This document shows positions 18,883 to 26,247 of a stretch of DNA of 64,000 nt, piece after piece (positions within the stretch are counted from its first letter, which is position 1; every line of letters begins with the position of its first letter). The stretch covers positions 4,898,001 to 4,962,000 of the forward strand of contig NZ_JAPNKA010000001.1 of assembly GCF_026626635.1 (NCBI RefSeq), written 5' to 3'. The DNA is from Archangium lansingense. GTDB taxonomy: Bacteria; Myxococcota; Myxococcia; Myxococcales; Myxococcaceae. The notes under the pieces were generated by a model. It was not told where the DNA came from and did not search any database. It worked only from the letters and a program-made list of their open reading frames with translations. Made by a program: the position numbers and the translations under genes.

Positions 18883-19670
18883 GGCTCGTAGATTCCCACT
18901 GTCACTTCGACCGTGCCGACTCCGCGTACGTGAATGCCGCGCTGGAGCGCGCCCGTGCCGCCGGGCTGGTGCATGCCGTCATCGTCGGCCAGTTCCAGGG
19001 CCCCGGTGATTGGGGCATTGCGCTGGAGGTCGCCGCCGCTCACCCGCAGTTCCTCACGGCGACGCTCGGCATCCATCCGCACGAGGCGGCCCGAGCCACC
19101 GAGGCGGACCTCGAGCACCTGGAGCGGACGTGTGCCCGTCCGGAGATCCACGCCGTGGGTGAGGCCGGGCTCGACTACTACTACGAGCACTCCGCCCGGG
19201 ACGTGCAGCGGCAGGTGTTCCGGAGGCAGTGCGCGCTGGCGAAGCGCCTGGGCAAGCCGCTCGTGGTGCACGTGCGCGAGTCGACGAAGGGTGGGGATGC
19301 GCATCCCGAGTGCGAGGCCATCCTGAAGGAGGAGGGTATGAGCCGGGGCGTCATCCACTGCTTTACCGGTGACACCGAGGCGGCCCGGCGCTACCTGGAC
19401 CTGGGGTTCATGCTGTCGCTCTCGGGGGTCGTCACCTACAAGAAGACCGAGGCGCTCCAGGACGCGGTGCGCTTCGCGCCGTTGGATCGGCTGATGGTGG
19501 AGACGGACAGCCCGTACCTGGCGCCCATCCCCTACCGCGGCAAGAAGAACGAGCCCTCGTACGTCGTCGAGACGGCGAAGAAGGTCGCCGAGCTGAAGGG
19601 TGTGTCGCTCGAGCGCGTGGCTGAGGTGACCACGGCCAACGCGGCGGCGCTGTTCGGCTTCACGGTGTGA
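18879..19670 (+). CDS. TatD-family metal-dependent hydrolase/DNase
   Basis: 263 residues. The TatD metal site is complete: H7/H9 in DSHCHFD, E in AVGEAGLDYYYEHS, H in VVHVRES, H in HCFTGD and D in VETDSPYLAPIPYRG. Family members are 3'-5' exonucleases or phosphodiesterases using two metals. It begins inside the HEAT gene stop (ATGA). It is the last native gene before the AT-richer foreign block. Confidence 0.93.
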   Translation: MRLVDSHCHFDRADSAYVNAALERARAAGLVHAVIVGQFQGPGDWGIALEVAAAHPQFLTATLGIHPHEAARATEADLEHLERTCARPEIHAVGEAGLDYYYEHSARDVQRQVFRRQCALAKRLGKPLVVHVRESTKGGDAHPECEAILKEEGMSRGVIHCFTGDTEAARRYLDLGFMLSLSGVVTYKKTEALQDAVRFAPLDRLMVETDSPYLAPIPYRGKKNEPSYVVETAKKVAELKGVSLERVAEVTTANAAALFGFTV

Positions 19671-20107
19671 TTCATCGTCTCCGTGGTGCCAGAGTATGTG
19701 ACTTGGCTCATCCTTTCGAGAGTGAAGCTCTGCCGCCCACTCGCTCACTTTGCACATGATGCCTTGGAGCGAGCATGACGATCGAGGAAGGACGCATGCG
19801 AACCAAAAGTGAGGAAAAGGCGATGCGCTATGTGCGTCTACATCTGGGTCCGCTGGGCGGGGACGGAACTCCGAGGGCGACGCCCCGCAGACGAGACTTG
19901 GTGCTTCTATTTGGGCTGGGGCGTTCGTGTAGTGGAGTCCCGCTCGGGACCATTGCTAGCGAAGGAAGTACTGAGTGGTGACATGGGTAATTCTGTCACT
20001 GCAGGGCCCTCTTGTACCCCTGCCTCAAACAGAAGTAATTCAGTATAGTGAATTCTGCGGAACCAAGCATGTCGTCAATGTTTTAAACATTTCCTGCCTA
20101 AAGAGAC
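19671..20107. other. 437-bp junction region before the STAND gene
   Basis: Base composition falls here from the GC-rich host level to AT-richer DNA, roughly from 19980 on. Two overlapping short frames (19775-19981 and 19809-20048) resemble nothing I know and have weak ribosome sites, so neither is called. Only a 15-bp palindrome at 20077-20091 stands out. Confidence 0.5.
20077..20091. promoter_or_regulatory. Candidate operator upstream of the STAND gene
   Basis: AATGTTTTAAACATT is a perfect 7-bp-arm palindrome around one central base, ending 16 bp before the ATG. Its position over the leader could allow autoregulation or control by an unlinked repressor; no linked regulator gene is present. 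Confidence 0.4.
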
Positions 20108-23100
20108 ATGAGCCCTGACAAAAAAAGCTGGATTGAGCCTGGCGAATTTCCAGATCAAAGAATTATGCGAATGCAAGCCGCAATGGTTCTATTCGCACTT
20201 GAGCAGTCGCTTGGATTGTTTATCCGCGAATGGGTTCAGACTCGCGGAACGGCACCAACAAAAACCTTGAAGAACCTGGGAGCACGCGCAGGCAGCCCTG
20301 GTGGAATAAGCATCGATCAAGCAATACCAGCTAGTTACCTTGGAGAGCTAATCGACATCGCACTTGAATGCACAAAGGGGGAAAGTGAGTATGATGCCGT
20401 AGCTCGGCTTCAAAGAATGTTCGACCTACTGGAAGTCTACGATATTCGCAATGCCATTGCTCACCCCAACAGGCCTTTTGCTCCTCACTATTGGTATCGG
20501 CTGAAGGCGATTGTTGCTGATCCTGTAATACAACGTCTTCGGCTATCCTCTGCATATTCAGCCCTTGTCTCTGCAATGAAAGGACAGTTTCAGGAGCCTC
20601 CAGAGGAATGGCTCAAAGCAATTCTTTGGCGTCTGCCAAACAACATCCCTGCTCTTTTTGAACACGAGGTTACTGGACTTGTGGGAAGGAAGAAGGACAG
20701 GGAGAATCTTCTCAAAATACTCCGCAATCAAAAGCTCAATCTCCTCGCCATAGTTGCGCCGGGTGGTGTCGGAAAAACTGCGCTTCTGCTCGACTGTCTG
20801 CGTGAAATCTGTGAAACTCCAGCAGACATTAACTGGGTCGAGCAGGTTGTGTGGGTTTCGGCAAAAACACACGTGCTTACTTCTGAAGGAGAAAAGCAGA
20901 TCGCTGATGACTTCGCGATCCATGATGCCACAAAAATAGTAGCCCAGGAGCTTCTTGGAGACGACAGTGCAGAATTGAAGGATGCAATTAAGCAATTTGA
21001 GTCGCGGCGCATATTGATAGCGCTGGACAATCTGGAAACGCTACTTCGTGATTCCCCAGAAAGTTTTGCAGAGTTCTACCAGAGCCTTCCTGCGGCTTGG
21101 CGAGTCGTTGTGACATCAAGAGTAACAGTAGACTCTGCTACAACGCTAACGCTCAATCATCTCAGTCGCGAGGGGGCTCAGCAGCTCGCCTTTGCATACC
21201 TGAAGTGGAAGAGTGTCGATGTTCCGCCTGATATTAATCGGCTAGTGGAACGCTGTGAGTATAATCCACTGGCTATAAAATTGTCTATTGATGGATATTG
21301 TGCTGGCGGCTCCCTGGATGAGGTTCTAAGTAGAACACGCAGAGATCTGGTTCAGTTTTCGTATAAGGTGCTAACCAGTTCGCTTGAGCAAAGCCATCGC
21401 TATCTTTTAGAAGCGCTTTTTGCTAGCGAGGGAGCACTTAGTCGCAATGACTTGGCCGCGACTCTAGACAGGCCCGTCGACGATATTGCTAATGCCTTGG
21501 CGAAGCTGCTTCGCACCAGTTTGGTTGTTCGCGTACCCGTGGAGGAGGAAGAAAAGTATGAGTTGAGCGCAGGAATACGTGAGTTGATGCTGCTCGATCC
21601 ACTTGATTTGGATTTCAGAATGGGGGTGGGGGAGCGCCGTCGTCGCGCAACAACTCTCGGGATGGAATACCAGCGTATTCAAACCGAACGAGGAATCAGC
21701 CCACTTAGCCCGTTCTACGTGCCAACGGACATCCCTTCTATACATAGCCTTCTTGCATTCAGATCCTCAAGGCACCTCCGGATGAAAACTCCGGATCGTA
21801 CTGAGACAGTGAATCTGGTTGATGAGTTGCGCCAGAAAATCGACTCGGGAGTCGAACATAGCTGTTTCTACCGATTTCTTGGTCTTTTTTTGTTGAAGCT
21901 GGGAGATCGCCCCCGTGGAATCGATTGGCTTCGAAAGGCTGTAAATGCGGCCCCGTATGATCCAGCCTCTCGCATTGCTCTTGCTTATGAGCTCGCTTTC
22001 GACAATGAGCTTGGGGAGGCTATCAAGCTCAGCCAAGAGTTGATAGGGAATGGCTGGGCCGACGAGAATAAAGTAGGCGCTGATTCCGCAGCGCTTGTCC
22101 GAAAAAACAACTGGATACACAGAATCTGGAGTGGAGACACAGAAAAGGTCGCCCAAGAGACCGTCGGCTGGCAATCTATGGGTGCTCTGTCGCTTGTGGC
22201 TGGCCTTGCCTATGCCCAAGCAAAGCGCAGATCTGTTGAGCATAAGTATGGGGTCAGTCACGAAATTGAAGCAGGCCTGACGGAGTCCGTAAAGACATTT
22301 GAGCTGATTTTCCAGAAATTTGGTCTGACTGGTCCAACGGCGCGAGAGGCTGTAAAGCTTATAGAGCAATTGGCATACGCAGCTCGTGCAAAGAACTTCC
22401 GTCCGTCAGAGCAAAGTCGAAAGCTCTTTTCAGGGTTTGTTAATCAAAGGCTTCCTGAAATATGCCAGATTCATGACCAGTTCTCAATCGAGAGCAAAGA
22501 AGTGCAGGACTGGTTCAATGCAATCCAGGTCTGGACTAATGACCAGAATCTCCAGCCCGCCAAGGCTTCACCATCCATCCTGGCTACATCCTCGCCCTTG
22601 CCCGCGCCGACGGTAGCGCCCGCGCCGACGGTAGCGCCCGCGCCGACGGTAGCGCCCGCGCCGACGGTAGCGCCCGCGCCGACGGTAGCGCCCGCGCCGA
22701 CGGGGGTGTCCTCGCCGACGGCAGCGCCCGCGTCGAAGGGTGCGTCCTCGCCGACGGTAGCGCCCGCGTCGAAGGGTGTGTCCTCGCCGACGGCAGCGCC
22801 CGCGTCGAAGGGTGTGTCCTCGCCGAAGGGGGCGTCCTCGCCGAAGGGTGCGTCCTCGCCGAAGAGTGTGTCCTCGCCGAAGGGTGTGTCCTCGCCGAAG
22901 GTGACCGTGGTCATTTCCTCGAAGCCAAAAATTGATCCGCAGTCACCTAGATTGGCATCGAGCTATCTGTTTGCTAAAGGGCCGAATGGGGTTGATTACT
23001 TTATTAGAAGGGACGACTACTCTGGAGATGACAACAGTTGGAAAGCACTTTCTCCAGGCGCAAAGCTCGAAATTCGCCCCGATAAGCCAGGCAAGGGAAA

Positions 23101-23155
23101 AGCAACGCCTGTTATATCTGCGGTTCTTGTCTCTCCAGATAATAGGCGAAAATGA
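20108..23155 (+). CDS. Predicted HEPN-like/STAND NTPase protein with C-terminal cold-shock-like domain
   Basis: 1015 residues. Residues ~20-150 are a helical HEPN-like unit with the R114-x4-H119 motif in DIRNAIAHPNRPF, the signature of HEPN ribonucleases. Residues ~185-450 are a STAND NTPase: LVGRKKDRENLL, Walker A APGGVGKT (217-224), Walker B ILIALDNLE (302-310), and VVVTSR (333-338) as the sensor. A winged-helix-like region and TPR-like helices (RPRGIDWLRKAVNAAPYDPAS) follow to ~810. Residues 832 to ~935 are tandem Pro/Ala/Thr then Ser/Pro/Lys repeats. Residues ~952-1013 (FAKGPNGVDYFIRRDDY..WKALSPGAKLEIRP) resemble a cold-shock OB fold. Codon use is AT-rich, unlike neighbours, so it is acquired. 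An antiphage sensor with a ribonuclease effector is a reasonable inference, not shown. Confidence 0.8.
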   Translation: MSPDKKSWIEPGEFPDQRIMRMQAAMVLFALEQSLGLFIREWVQTRGTAPTKTLKNLGARAGSPGGISIDQAIPASYLGELIDIALECTKGESEYDAVARLQRMFDLLEVYDIRNAIAHPNRPFAPHYWYRLKAIVADPVIQRLRLSSAYSALVSAMKGQFQEPPEEWLKAILWRLPNNIPALFEHEVTGLVGRKKDRENLLKILRNQKLNLLAIVAPGGVGKTALLLDCLREICETPADINWVEQVVWVSAKTHVLTSEGEKQIADDFAIHDATKIVAQELLGDDSAELKDAIKQFESRRILIALDNLETLLRDSPESFAEFYQSLPAAWRVVVTSRVTVDSATTLTLNHLSREGAQQLAFAYLKWKSVDVPPDINRLVERCEYNPLAIKLSIDGYCAGGSLDEVLSRTRRDLVQFSYKVLTSSLEQSHRYLLEALFASEGALSRNDLAATLDRPVDDIANALAKLLRTSLVVRVPVEEEEKYELSAGIRELMLLDPLDLDFRMGVGERRRRATTLGMEYQRIQTERGISPLSPFYVPTDIPSIHSLLAFRSSRHLRMKTPDRTETVNLVDELRQKIDSGVEHSCFYRFLGLFLLKLGDRPRGIDWLRKAVNAAPYDPASRIALAYELAFDNELGEAIKLSQELIGNGWADENKVGADSAALVRKNNWIHRIWSGDTEKVAQETVGWQSMGALSLVAGLAYAQAKRRSVEHKYGVSHEIEAGLTESVKTFELIFQKFGLTGPTAREAVKLIEQLAYAARAKNFRPSEQSRKLFSGFVNQRLPEICQIHDQFSIESKEVQDWFNAIQVWTNDQNLQPAKASPSILATSSPLPAPTVAPAPTVAPAPTVAPAPTVAPAPTVAPAPTGVSSPTAAPASKGASSPTVAPASKGVSSPTAAPASKGVSSPKGASSPKGASSPKSVSSPKGVSSPKVTVVISSKPKIDPQSPRLASSYLFAKGPNGVDYFIRRDDYSGDDNSWKALSPGAKLEIRPDKPGKGKATPVISAVLVSPDNRRK
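22601..22905 (+). repeat. Tandem repeats inside the STAND gene linker
   Basis: Five exact 18-bp copies of CCCGCGCCGACGGTAGCG run from 22601 to 22690, then a diverged sixth. They encode Pro-Ala-Pro-Thr-Val-Ala units. They are followed to ~22905 by shorter degenerate repeats encoding SSPKG/PASKG units. The block is far more GC-rich than the rest of the gene. Exact copies imply recent, slippage-prone growth; all units are multiples of three, so the frame is kept. Confidence 0.9.
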
Positions 23156-23654
23156 CATCCATACCTCAGTTCGAGTTTCGCACTTTCGGGTGACCTCTGG
23201 AAGAGCGAACGGCAGATGACTTGGTGGACTGAGTAGCCCGCGCTCCCTTTGGTGCCTTCCAACTCGCCTGAAGACGGCGCAGGGGAGCGAAGCTGGAGCA
23301 AGCACCGGCAGGACATTAGATGTCCTGCAGGAGAAGCTGATGGGAGAGGTGGTGGGCTGACGGGTTCAGACACTACTTCCGCCTGACGGGAGGCTCGCCA
23401 TGATGCTTCAAGACTTGTTCTTGCAACTCGTCCTGCAACTGGGCGTCGGCATGACGGCGCCGACGCTCAACTTGTTGGCGACGGTGGCGAAGGGGTGGCT
23501 GTTCGCCAGACGGCCACCCTCACCGGGGTGCTGGTGGCGGTAGGGGCTGGTGGCCCCAAGCACCATTCAGCCTAATACCAGCTATTCGCCGCGGCGCGCT
23601 GGAGCTTGTTGGACTCGCTGCATCGCCAGAAACTACGAAACTCGAACTTAGAGC
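23156..23654. other. Intergenic stretch after the STAND gene, with one 47-codon frame
   Basis: Composition returns to GC-rich. A frame at 23401-23544 starts MMLQDLFLQLVLQLGVGMTA after GGGAGGCTCGCC and ends CWWR. It looks hydrophobic and may be a remnant of a longer myxobacterial protein, but I recognise no family. Nothing else is supported. Confidence 0.35.
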
Positions 23655-23724
23655 GCCTAACAAAAGTAAGGTTTGAGGGAGCCGTCCCCTCGGGAGATCA
23701 CTCCAGTCCTTACTTTTGTTAGGC
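23655..23724. repeat. attC-like recombination site 1
   Basis: 70 bp. It begins with GCCTAAC (fits the inverse core RYYYAAC) and ends with GTTAGGC (fits the core GTTRRRY). The outer 17 bases pair perfectly (GCCTAACAAAAGTAAGG with CCTTACTTTTGTTAGGC), and a smaller GAGGG/CCCTC hairpin lies inside. This is the layout of an integron attC site. It shares length and interior sequence with the copy at 24186-24255. Confidence 0.6.
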
Positions 23725-23795
23725 GGTCTTACAACGGTTTCCCGAATGGACTCAATATCCTGCCGTAGGTATGGGCCTATTTCGCAAGCGGACCT

Positions 23796-23869
23796 GCCCG
23801 ACAAGCAAGCAGTGGGTGCTCATCCAAGCTGCCTCCGGGAGGAGTGCTCAGTCCTTATTTTTGTCAGGT
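23796..23869. repeat. attC-like site 2, degenerate
   Basis: 74 bp from GCCCGAC to GTCAGGT, both one or two bases off the attC core consensus. The right arm (revcomp ACCTGACAAAAATAAGGACTG) matches the arms of sites 1 and 3. It overlaps the 3' end of the small minus-strand gene, as attC sites do in gene cassettes. Confidence 0.45.
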
Positions 23870-24117
23870 GCTCTAAGTTTGAGTTCTTCGGCTTCCGCAA
23901 AAGCCAGTAATTGAGCTCGTACGTTATCGTCGGCCTCCTGTGCATCATCGCCATAACAATGTGCGCTTTGGATGAGAGATTCATCGTCAAGGCGGTGCAA
24001 AGCACCACTTGCGCCATAGACATAGTCACCACCTGGCGAACGATGTTTCCCTCTTCGGGAGATAATACGCATCCCAAAGTGAGCTGTAAGTTGCTCAAGG
24101 TCTGTTTTCTTGGTCAT
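23848..24117 (-). CDS. Small hypothetical protein in a cassette-like unit
   Basis: 89 residues from ATG 24117, which has AAAGGA seven bases upstream; a start at 24174 would add 19 residues. The sequence is rich in charged residues (MTKKTDLEQLTAHFGMRIIS, then YGASGALHRLDDESLIQ and QEADDNVRAQLLAFAEAEEL) with no signal peptide, membrane helix or known family. The gene is AT-richer than its surroundings. It is bounded by attC-like hairpins 69 bp upstream and overlapping its stop, so it looks like one mobile gene cassette. Confidence 0.55.
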   Translation of the reverse strand: MTKKTDLEQLTAHFGMRIISRRGKHRSPGGDYVYGASGALHRLDDESLIQSAHCYGDDAQEADDNVRAQLLAFAEAEELKLRAPDKNKD

Positions 24118-24185
24118 ACGGTGAAGTCCTTTCTCTTCTGGCACGATGAATATCTTCGATATAAAACCAATCATCAGCTTGGAAC

Positions 24186-24255
24186 GCCTAGCAGAAGTCC
24201 GGTCTGAGGGAGTCCTCTCCTCAGGAAAAGGGCCCAGCCCTTACTTCTGTTAGGC
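24186..24255. repeat. attC-like recombination site 3
   Basis: 70 bp from GCCTAGC to GTTAGGC. The arms pair with a few mismatches. The interior (CTCCTCAGG..AGGACTCCCTCAGACC on the minus strand) follows site 1 base by base through much of its length. Same size and orientation as site 1. Confidence 0.55.
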
Positions 24256-24285
24256 GCTCTTAGCTCCCAGGCGGGAGAGGGGGCT

Positions 24286-26247
24286 CTACACGGTGGGCAT
24301 GGACGTGGTCGGTCTGCGCGTCGCGACCTGCTGGGCGAGCACCTCCAGGTCCTTGTCCATCTGCGGCATATCCAGCAGCAGCGAGTCCGGGTCGTAGCGG
24401 AAGTCCGCCTGCTGGAAGCCCATCAGCGTCTGCAGGGCCTGCTCGCCGTTCTGGGTTGCCACGGTGGCGTAGACGAGCTTCCCCTGCTCCAGGTGCAGGT
24501 AGCCCTCGTGCGCGTTCTGCTTCAGGTAGAGCCGCCCCGACTTCTTGCCCGCTCCCAGCAGCTTGAGCAGCTGGGCCGCCGGTAGCTCGTCCAGGCTTCC
24601 GCGTACCGGCCGGGCCGGGCCGTTGTGCTGGATGCGGTCGTCGTACAGGGAGCGGATCGTCTTCGCCGCCTCGTCCGGCTGTGCGGGGGGCAGTACCGCT
24701 GTGGCTCCACCCATCATCAGCCGCTCGCGCGTGCCCGCGTCGGGGTCTCCGAGCACCACCACCGGCAGGCCCGCGTGCTCCGGCGACGAGCGCACCGCCT
24801 GCAGCAGCCCCAGCAGTTCCTCCAGCCCGAACTTCAGCCCCACCACGAGCACGTCGCAGTCCTGATACCCCAGCGCGTCATACGCCCCATCCAGCGAGGA
24901 AAGGGCGTGCACCACCAGCCCCTGCTTCTGGGAGGTCTCCAGCAGGTCCGTCCGCGTGCCCTCTTCCGGCTCCACGATGAGGATCTGCCGCCCGTCGTTG
25001 ACGATGCGCTGGCGCAGCAACTCGCCGGTCTGCACCTGCATGACGATGTCTGCCACCAGCGGATCGTACAGCTTGCCCGAGTTCTCCCTCAGGTGCTCCA
25101 GCGCCTGGTCCTTGGTCAGCAGCTTCCCGTACGCGTTGGCTGGGTTCTTCGTCAGCTCCAGGTAGCTGTCCACCGTCGCAAGGATGCGCGCGCCCAGGGT
25201 GATGTCATCCCCCTTGGCTCCCTGCGGCGTCCCCGAGCCGTCATAGGCTTCGTAGAGCTGCGCGAGCATGGTGTTCACCTGCACTGGCAGGTTCACCGAC
25301 TCGAAGAGCTTCGTCGGCACACGGCAGTAGCGTTTGGCTTCGGCCATCCACTCCGGGTTCGCCGCGTTGCTCGCCAGGCAGAAGTGGCGCTCGGCCGGTT
25401 TGCCCAGGTCGTGCAGGTAGCCCGCGATGGCCACCGCCGCCACGTCCCTGGGCAGCATTCCCAGGCGCCGCGCCACGACCGTGGCCTGGCGCGCGAGCTG
25501 CGCCGAGTGCCCCCGGTGGTGCTTGCGGTCCCGCTCCTGCATCGTCACCAGGATGTTCAGCGTCTCGATGTAGTCCTTGTCGCTCACCGTCCCGCGCGAG
25601 CCGGGGAAGGTGTCGCCGCTGGACGTCTTGTTCCGCCCTTGCGTGCCCGGGCGCTGCAGCCGCAGCCGGGTGTCCGTCTCAAGGCGCAGATGGAGGCTGG
25701 GCTTGGGGGCCGCCCCCGCGGTGCTCTCGTAGGCGCTGGCCATGCTGGACACGTCCGCGCGGATCTGCGCCGTCACCACCTCCAGCGAGGCGAAGGCCGT
25801 GGTGTCGCCGTAGTAGTGCTTGCGGATGGCGGCGGCGATGGTGCTGCGCAGGCCTACGTACGCGTAGACCTCCGTCATGCCCGTCACCAGGGCGATCTCG
25901 TCCAGCAGCTTCTTGTTCTGCGGCTCGGCCGCCACCACCGACAGCAGCTGGCGCTCCGGGTCGATCGCCAGCGGAAGCACGTTCTGCGCCTCCGCCAGCC
26001 GCACCGGTACCTTGTCCAGCACCTCCGTGGGAATGCGGGCCTTGGCCAGCTTCTCCGCGGAGACGAAGCGCGTCTGGAACTCGGCCGCCAGGAAGCGCAG
26101 CAACGCCGCCTCCTGGAGCAGGCCGATCTCCACCAGACAGTCCCCCAGCCGGTGGCCGGTGATCTTCTGGTGCTCCAGCGCCTTCTGGATGGAATCGCTG
26201 GTGACGAGCCCCGCCTCGACGAGGCGCTCACCCAGTTTCTTCGCCAT
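24286..26247 (-). CDS. MshEN-HD domain regulator with receiver-like and DUF4388 domains
   Basis: 653 residues. Residues 1-150 carry two MshEN/GspE-N-like units (LGERLVEAGLVTSDSIQKAL, RLGDCLVEIGLLQEAALLRFLA), a fold that can bind cyclic-di-GMP. Residues ~225-420 are an HD hydrolase with AGYLHDLGKPAE; the GYP of HD-GYP enzymes is replaced by YDGSGTPQG. Residues ~420-540 resemble a receiver (ILIVEPEEGTRTDLLETSQ) and the last ~110 (LPAAQLLKLLGAGKKSGRLYL) are DUF4388-like. The design suggests a c-di-GMP-linked signalling protein; activity is uncertain given the changed GYP. It starts 3 bp after the YhaM-type gene, so one operon. Confidence 0.8.
   Translation of the reverse strand: MAKKLGERLVEAGLVTSDSIQKALEHQKITGHRLGDCLVEIGLLQEAALLRFLAAEFQTRFVSAEKLAKARIPTEVLDKVPVRLAEAQNVLPLAIDPERQLLSVVAAEPQNKKLLDEIALVTGMTEVYAYVGLRSTIAAAIRKHYYGDTTAFASLEVVTAQIRADVSSMASAYESTAGAAPKPSLHLRLETDTRLRLQRPGTQGRNKTSSGDTFPGSRGTVSDKDYIETLNILVTMQERDRKHHRGHSAQLARQATVVARRLGMLPRDVAAVAIAGYLHDLGKPAERHFCLASNAANPEWMAEAKRYCRVPTKLFESVNLPVQVNTMLAQLYEAYDGSGTPQGAKGDDITLGARILATVDSYLELTKNPANAYGKLLTKDQALEHLRENSGKLYDPLVADIVMQVQTGELLRQRIVNDGRQILIVEPEEGTRTDLLETSQKQGLVVHALSSLDGAYDALGYQDCDVLVVGLKFGLEELLGLLQAVRSSPEHAGLPVVVLGDPDAGTRERLMMGGATAVLPPAQPDEAAKTIRSLYDDRIQHNGPARPVRGSLDELPAAQLLKLLGAGKKSGRLYLKQNAHEGYLHLEQGKLVYATVATQNGEQALQTLMGFQQADFRYDPDSLLLDMPQMDKDLEVLAQQVATRRPTTSMPTV

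Follow-up and report, generated by a model that had tools for sequence, protein, structure and literature searches.

A HEPN-STAND-TPR-OB protein with an expanded linker, encoded in an inserted segment of Archangium lansingense

The stretch analysed here (the window) comprises 64,000 nucleotides of Archangium lansingense (contig NZ_JAPNKA010000001.1, positions 4,898,001 to 4,962,000), and a gene within it raises the question of what kind of protein it encodes, how it reached this genome and what it may serve for. The open reading frame (ORF) 20108..23155 on the + strand starts with ATG, and its product of 1015 amino acids (aa), P0001, belongs to a widespread class of HEPN-STAND-TPR-OB proteins and has an expanded linker. 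This architecture is already in print as a prediction (Anantharaman et al. 2013). Established here are the domain order, the invariant catalytic-type residues, the predicted folds of core and tail, and the lack of a constant neighbour. The gene was inserted into this genome and has a patchy spread.

Domain architecture of the protein

The following features were located, all on the + strand.

20108..23155, HEPN-STAND-TPR-linker-OB protein, 1015 aa (ORF, conservation, AlphaFold2 model)
20156..20578, HEPN-like helical domain, residues 17-157
20447..20464, R114-N115-x3-H119, predicted HEPN catalytic motif (R, N and H identical in 121/121)
20648..21637, STAND/NB-ARC NTPase with helical and winged-helix-like parts, residues ~181-510
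20756..20779, Walker A, residues 217-224 (sequence; conserved in aligned proteins)
21011..21037, Walker B, residues 302-310 (sequence; conserved in aligned proteins)
21728..22537, TPR-like helical repeats, residues ~541-810 (family profile, model)
22565..22888, disordered A/P/S/T/K-rich linker, residues 820-927 (repeats, model, composition)
22901..23128, cold-shock-like OB barrel, residues ~932-1007, with ribonucleoprotein (RNP)-like aromatics Y953, F955 and F965 (model, profile)

Conservation was judged from 121 aligned proteins, which are the query and 120 listed of 246 matches; scoring in the homologue search covered the 7999 candidates with the most words in common. The AlphaFold2 model of the whole protein, based on 84 aligned sequences, has a mean predicted local distance difference test score (pLDDT) of 84.5 and a predicted template modelling score of 0.56, so that the relative placement of its domains is unreliable. 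From the N-terminus it shows helices (17-157), the NTPase with its winged-helix-like part (~181-510) and helical repeats (up to 810), then a disordered region (820-927) and a set of five strands (within 932-1007). The order HEPN, STAND, TPR and C-terminal S1/cold-shock-like OB is present in one chain, the HEPN part being represented by its motif and by weak matches. A preliminary description of this DNA had named R114-x4-H119 in a helical N-terminus, a STAND ATPase core with both Walker motifs at the residues listed above, TPR-like helices and a tandem repeat linker, and each of these was recovered; the interpretation offered with it is borne out in part.

The core has the Walker A and B motifs, the NB-ARC-like fold and the winged helix of a STAND NTPase. 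Walker A reads A217-P-G-G-V-G-K-T224, with G219, G220, G222, K223 and T224 identical in all 121 aligned proteins, and Walker B reads ILIALDNLE, with D307, N308 and E310 equally invariant (121/121). PADLOC gave two weak matches over the P-loop region, STAND_TPR and PDC-S27. Over the TPR region the family profile matches TPR structures in PDB, and the model shows helix pairs.

The N-terminal motif R114-N-A-I-A-H119, whose R114, N115 and H119 are invariant in the same 121 proteins, agrees with the HEPN pattern R-x4-6-H with a polar residue after R. Judged from the alignment, the conservation of these three residues and of the Walker A and Walker B residues is far beyond chance. Fold comparison of the domain with HEPN gave a weak match. 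The best Pfam HEPN match among 36 N-terminal segments had E 0.0055; the segment of the window protein itself scored 12.2 bits with HEPN_Swt1, below the cutoff of 27.5, and the N-terminal profile found no match below E 0.11 among PDB sequences, and none to HEPN. The domain is a probable RNA-cutting one.

The cold-shock OB fold that had been proposed for residues 945-1015 is real as a barrel, with five strands and a profile match to a cold-shock structure, but its span is ~932-1007. Ten-residue pLDDT blocks of the strands range from 84 to 96, except for 61 at residues 941-950. The family profile of the tail (A4) matched the cold-shock structure 2kcm in PDB with E 5.8e-4, and Pfam CSD was found in 1/35 tails (E 3.2e-4), the window protein's own tail being without a match. 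The five-strand OB topology and the profile relation to CSD both identify a cold-shock-like OB fold. Mean column identity is 33% in A4 compared with 52% in the HEPN profile A3. The barrel is a putative nucleic-acid binder, most likely of RNA or single-stranded DNA.

The linker has a pLDDT under 50 and contains 18/36-nt tandem repeats (within 22600-22902) that code for A/P/S/T/K-rich units. The segment that joins the helical repeats to the barrel (812-932) measures 120 aa, as against a median of 29 and a next longest of 36 among the aligned proteins. Its G+C content at third codon positions (GC3) is 0.83, compared with 0.48 in the first 819 codons (49.7% GC) and 0.85-0.93 in five flanking genes (67-72% GC). 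Since the linker is far longer than the median and its GC3 is close to that of the flanking genes, the data suggest, without proving, that it grew by repeat expansion after the gene had reached its GC-rich host. The earlier argument that the gene was transferred, being AT-rich in a GC-rich genome, agrees with the composition of the first 819 codons; the linker alone is GC-rich.

Acquisition, spread and neighbouring genes

19671..24263, no strand, inserted segment of 53% GC between tatD and an HD/DUF4388 gene (empty site in 4/5 congeners; right edge known to ~30 bases)

The empty site speaks for horizontal acquisition. In four of five congeneric genomes the HD/DUF4388 gene region comes within ~35 bases of tatD, and in the fifth another insert, of 3.4 kb, occupies this place; no homologue was found in the corresponding stretch of any of the five. 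Residues 1-511 were used to survey 40 genomes of the order, and the window's own genome, which has one copy of the gene, was the only one with a match. Homologues elsewhere occupy 42 loci across several phyla. Long matches were found on 6 Acinetobacter plasmids and shorter ones, annotated NB-ARC, on 2 plasmids; viral contigs yielded one partial homologue, the phage records searched none, and a DNA search with a single Photobacterium gene as query no E. coli homologue. A tree of 36 proteins broadly tracks phyla, with families mixed inside them (for example Methylobacter with a Vibrio gene) and two Sideroxydans genes apart, for which paralogy is possible too. The window protein groups with two cyanobacterial proteins (100/100) on a long branch, and for this reason no donor is claimed.

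Within one genus, two unrelated inserts occur in the gap that separates tatD from the convergent HD/DUF4388 gene (19670-24286 in the window). The other insert (L060, 800-4243) carries an amidase-like ORF, judged by eye, and has a normal GC of 66%.

Neighbours were scanned as 138 proteins from the 42 loci (at most 2 per side, at least 115 aa, frames from a simple script). No Pfam family was matched by more than 4 of the 138, and therefore neither a fixed partner nor a conserved core locus is seen; homologues in conserved core loci had been named beforehand as an argument against the earlier interpretation. Location in defence islands, which had been proposed as a check, is suggested by defence-type and mobile genes among the neighbours, although these were counted without a control set. 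RT/DRT matches were discounted, since the group II intron maturase family (GIIM) matches 2 members, equal to reverse transcriptase.

On an 8-kb plasmid the gene is placed after replication and toxin-antitoxin (TA) genes; a 29.6-kb plasmid has this TA trio close to the gene, on the opposite strand. Homologues on Acinetobacter baumannii plasmids (L066, L067) stand close to RelE-type TA genes; on the larger of these two plasmids there are, in addition, macrolide resistance genes and a restriction enzyme of BsuBI/PstI type.

Related systems and possible function

Table 1 of Anantharaman et al. 2013 lists in the Abi2/Swt1 group 'STAND-ATPase, TPR, S1 (Npun_F6454, MED222_16016, Desac_1927), mostly active', and the HEPN-STAND proteins, some of which have a C-terminal cold-shock-like OB, are exemplified by gi 229028907 of Bacillus cereus (PMC3710099). 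By description these share N-terminal HEPN, STAND, TPR and C-terminal OB with the window protein, an architecture that points to the same family; its linker differs, being fourfold longer than the median of the aligned proteins. The literature search, with subscription papers and bioRxiv mostly outside it, found no experimental test of the family. The DefensePredictor paper contains 4 validated systems with HEPN domains (PMC13092281), one of which may be a member.

The core of SAMD9 has a P-loop NTPase, then TPR, then an OB fold that most resembles cold-shock proteins (Mekhedov et al. 2017, PMC5445408), and SAMD9/9L are described as poxvirus-activatable tRNA nucleases (PMC13245274). This order of domains in the human antiviral proteins SAMD9/SAMD9L is found in the window protein too. 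The effectors differ: SAMD9 has a tRNase of Alba type and after it a SIR2-like domain (PMC5445408, PMC13245274), the window protein a HEPN-like domain and, in Pfam, no match to Alba-type or SIR2-like domains; some SAMD9 members have lost both (PMC5445408). The Walker A lysine is glycine in SAMD9 but K223 in 121/121 here, and the likeness of the cores is one of shared layout. SAMD9 was absent from the best 60 of 268 matches of the PDB sequence profile search, and no paper drawing this parallel was found in the literature as far as it was accessible; SAMD9 and HEPN occur together in two papers, one on Cas12a3 and one on gene editing.

The plant NLR resistosome (6j5t, which we take to be ZAR1), CED-4 and Apaf-1 are close to the core of the window protein but differ in effector and sensor domains. 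The Avs (AVAST) receptors have the same layout of N-terminal effector, STAND and C-terminal sensor; no Avs model was among the two PADLOC matches of the window protein, the library presumably including such models, and Avs1-4 are not known to carry a HEPN domain. CoCoNuTs, for which a defence role by RNA targeting is predicted, likewise combine HEPN nucleases with cold-shock-like OB folds, but are McrBC-type GTPase operons, whereas the window protein is one STAND protein (PMC11090510).

A role in defence is likely, and on balance the gene probably encodes a single-gene, horizontally moving, NLR-like immune receptor; defence, RNase activity, oligomerisation and nucleic-acid binding are all inferred. 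At rest the STAND module would be locked, as its NLR/Apaf relatives suggest. A sign of infection would be recognised by the C-terminal half, that is the TPR solenoid and the cold-shock-like OB barrel on its flexible leash, and nucleotide exchange would lead to oligomerisation, as expected of an NLR/Apaf-like core, and so bring the HEPN domains together. The ligand of the barrel could be phage nucleic acid, acting as the trigger, or a host RNA such as tRNA, serving as the substrate. The family points to a large class of RNase receptors encoded by single genes, whose tail probably binds nucleic acid.

It is quite possible that the TPR solenoid alone senses a phage protein and that the barrel, with no sensor role, grips the substrate RNA of HEPN or latches the resting state. 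Avs proteins recognise phage proteins through C-terminal sensors (PMC13245274), and a leash of 120 aa is more in keeping with a tethered gripping module than with a sensor docked rigidly; the barrel nevertheless sits where sensors sit in STAND proteins, and its greater variability compared with the HEPN part (33% in A4, 52% in A3) is expected of a sensor. A more specific version of the receptor reading, which we regard as rather doubtful, makes the barrel the trigger: it would bind phage RNA or single-stranded DNA and, via TPR and STAND, switch on HEPN cleavage of host tRNA, the family being a bacterial counterpart, possibly a relative, of the SAMD9/9L core. If true, a core of nuclease, STAND switch, TPR and cold-shock-like OB runs from bacteria to humans. 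A nucleic-acid-sensing receptor would differ from Avs receptors, said to sense phage proteins (PMC13245274), and the layout in common with SAMD9 would make the family a tractable bacterial model.

A function outside phage defence is unlikely, whether as a gene that serves the maintenance of mobile elements or addiction to them, or as a general stress RNase. Small plasmids do carry the gene beside RelE-type TA genes, and the defence-type neighbours lack a control count, but the gene is large and receptor-like and has no constant partner fit to be its antidote, and the NLR-like switch, the patchy spread and some defence genes as neighbours argue against such a function. It is very unlikely that the N-terminal fold binds RNA without cutting while another activity does the work. 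The HEPN fold match is weak and some HEPN domains are thought inactive, but loss of the motif is what Anantharaman et al. 2013 (PMC3710099) describe for the inactive Swt1 family, and the R, N and H of this motif are invariant here.

Sensor-half searches and nearby repeats

Effector swapping on a shared sensor half was considered and rejected. A search with residues 520-922 of the homologue P0012 returned 19 proteins, P0012 included; 7 of the 8 new ones have the RN-x3-HP motif, and one (748 aa) begins downstream of it. With residues 535-1015 of P0001 no protein scored, the candidate list having probably been taken up by words from the linker.

23650-23729, 23849-23874 and 24178-24262, palindromic repeats of 80-85 nt, one of the three being a half copy
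23848-24174, - strand, 108-aa ORF between two palindromic repeats (no Pfam match up to E 0.1)

The palindromic repeats have a stem z-score of -8.9 as DNA and 12 matches at 8 places in the window's own genome. Their ends GCCTAAC/GTTAGGC resemble the attC consensus; an identification as integron attC sites was set aside, as no bulges interrupt the pairing of the arms, which are also found as ends elsewhere. Pairs of such ends ~0.9 kb apart occur at L048 and L051, which suggests that the palindrome pairs are miniature copies of a transposon.
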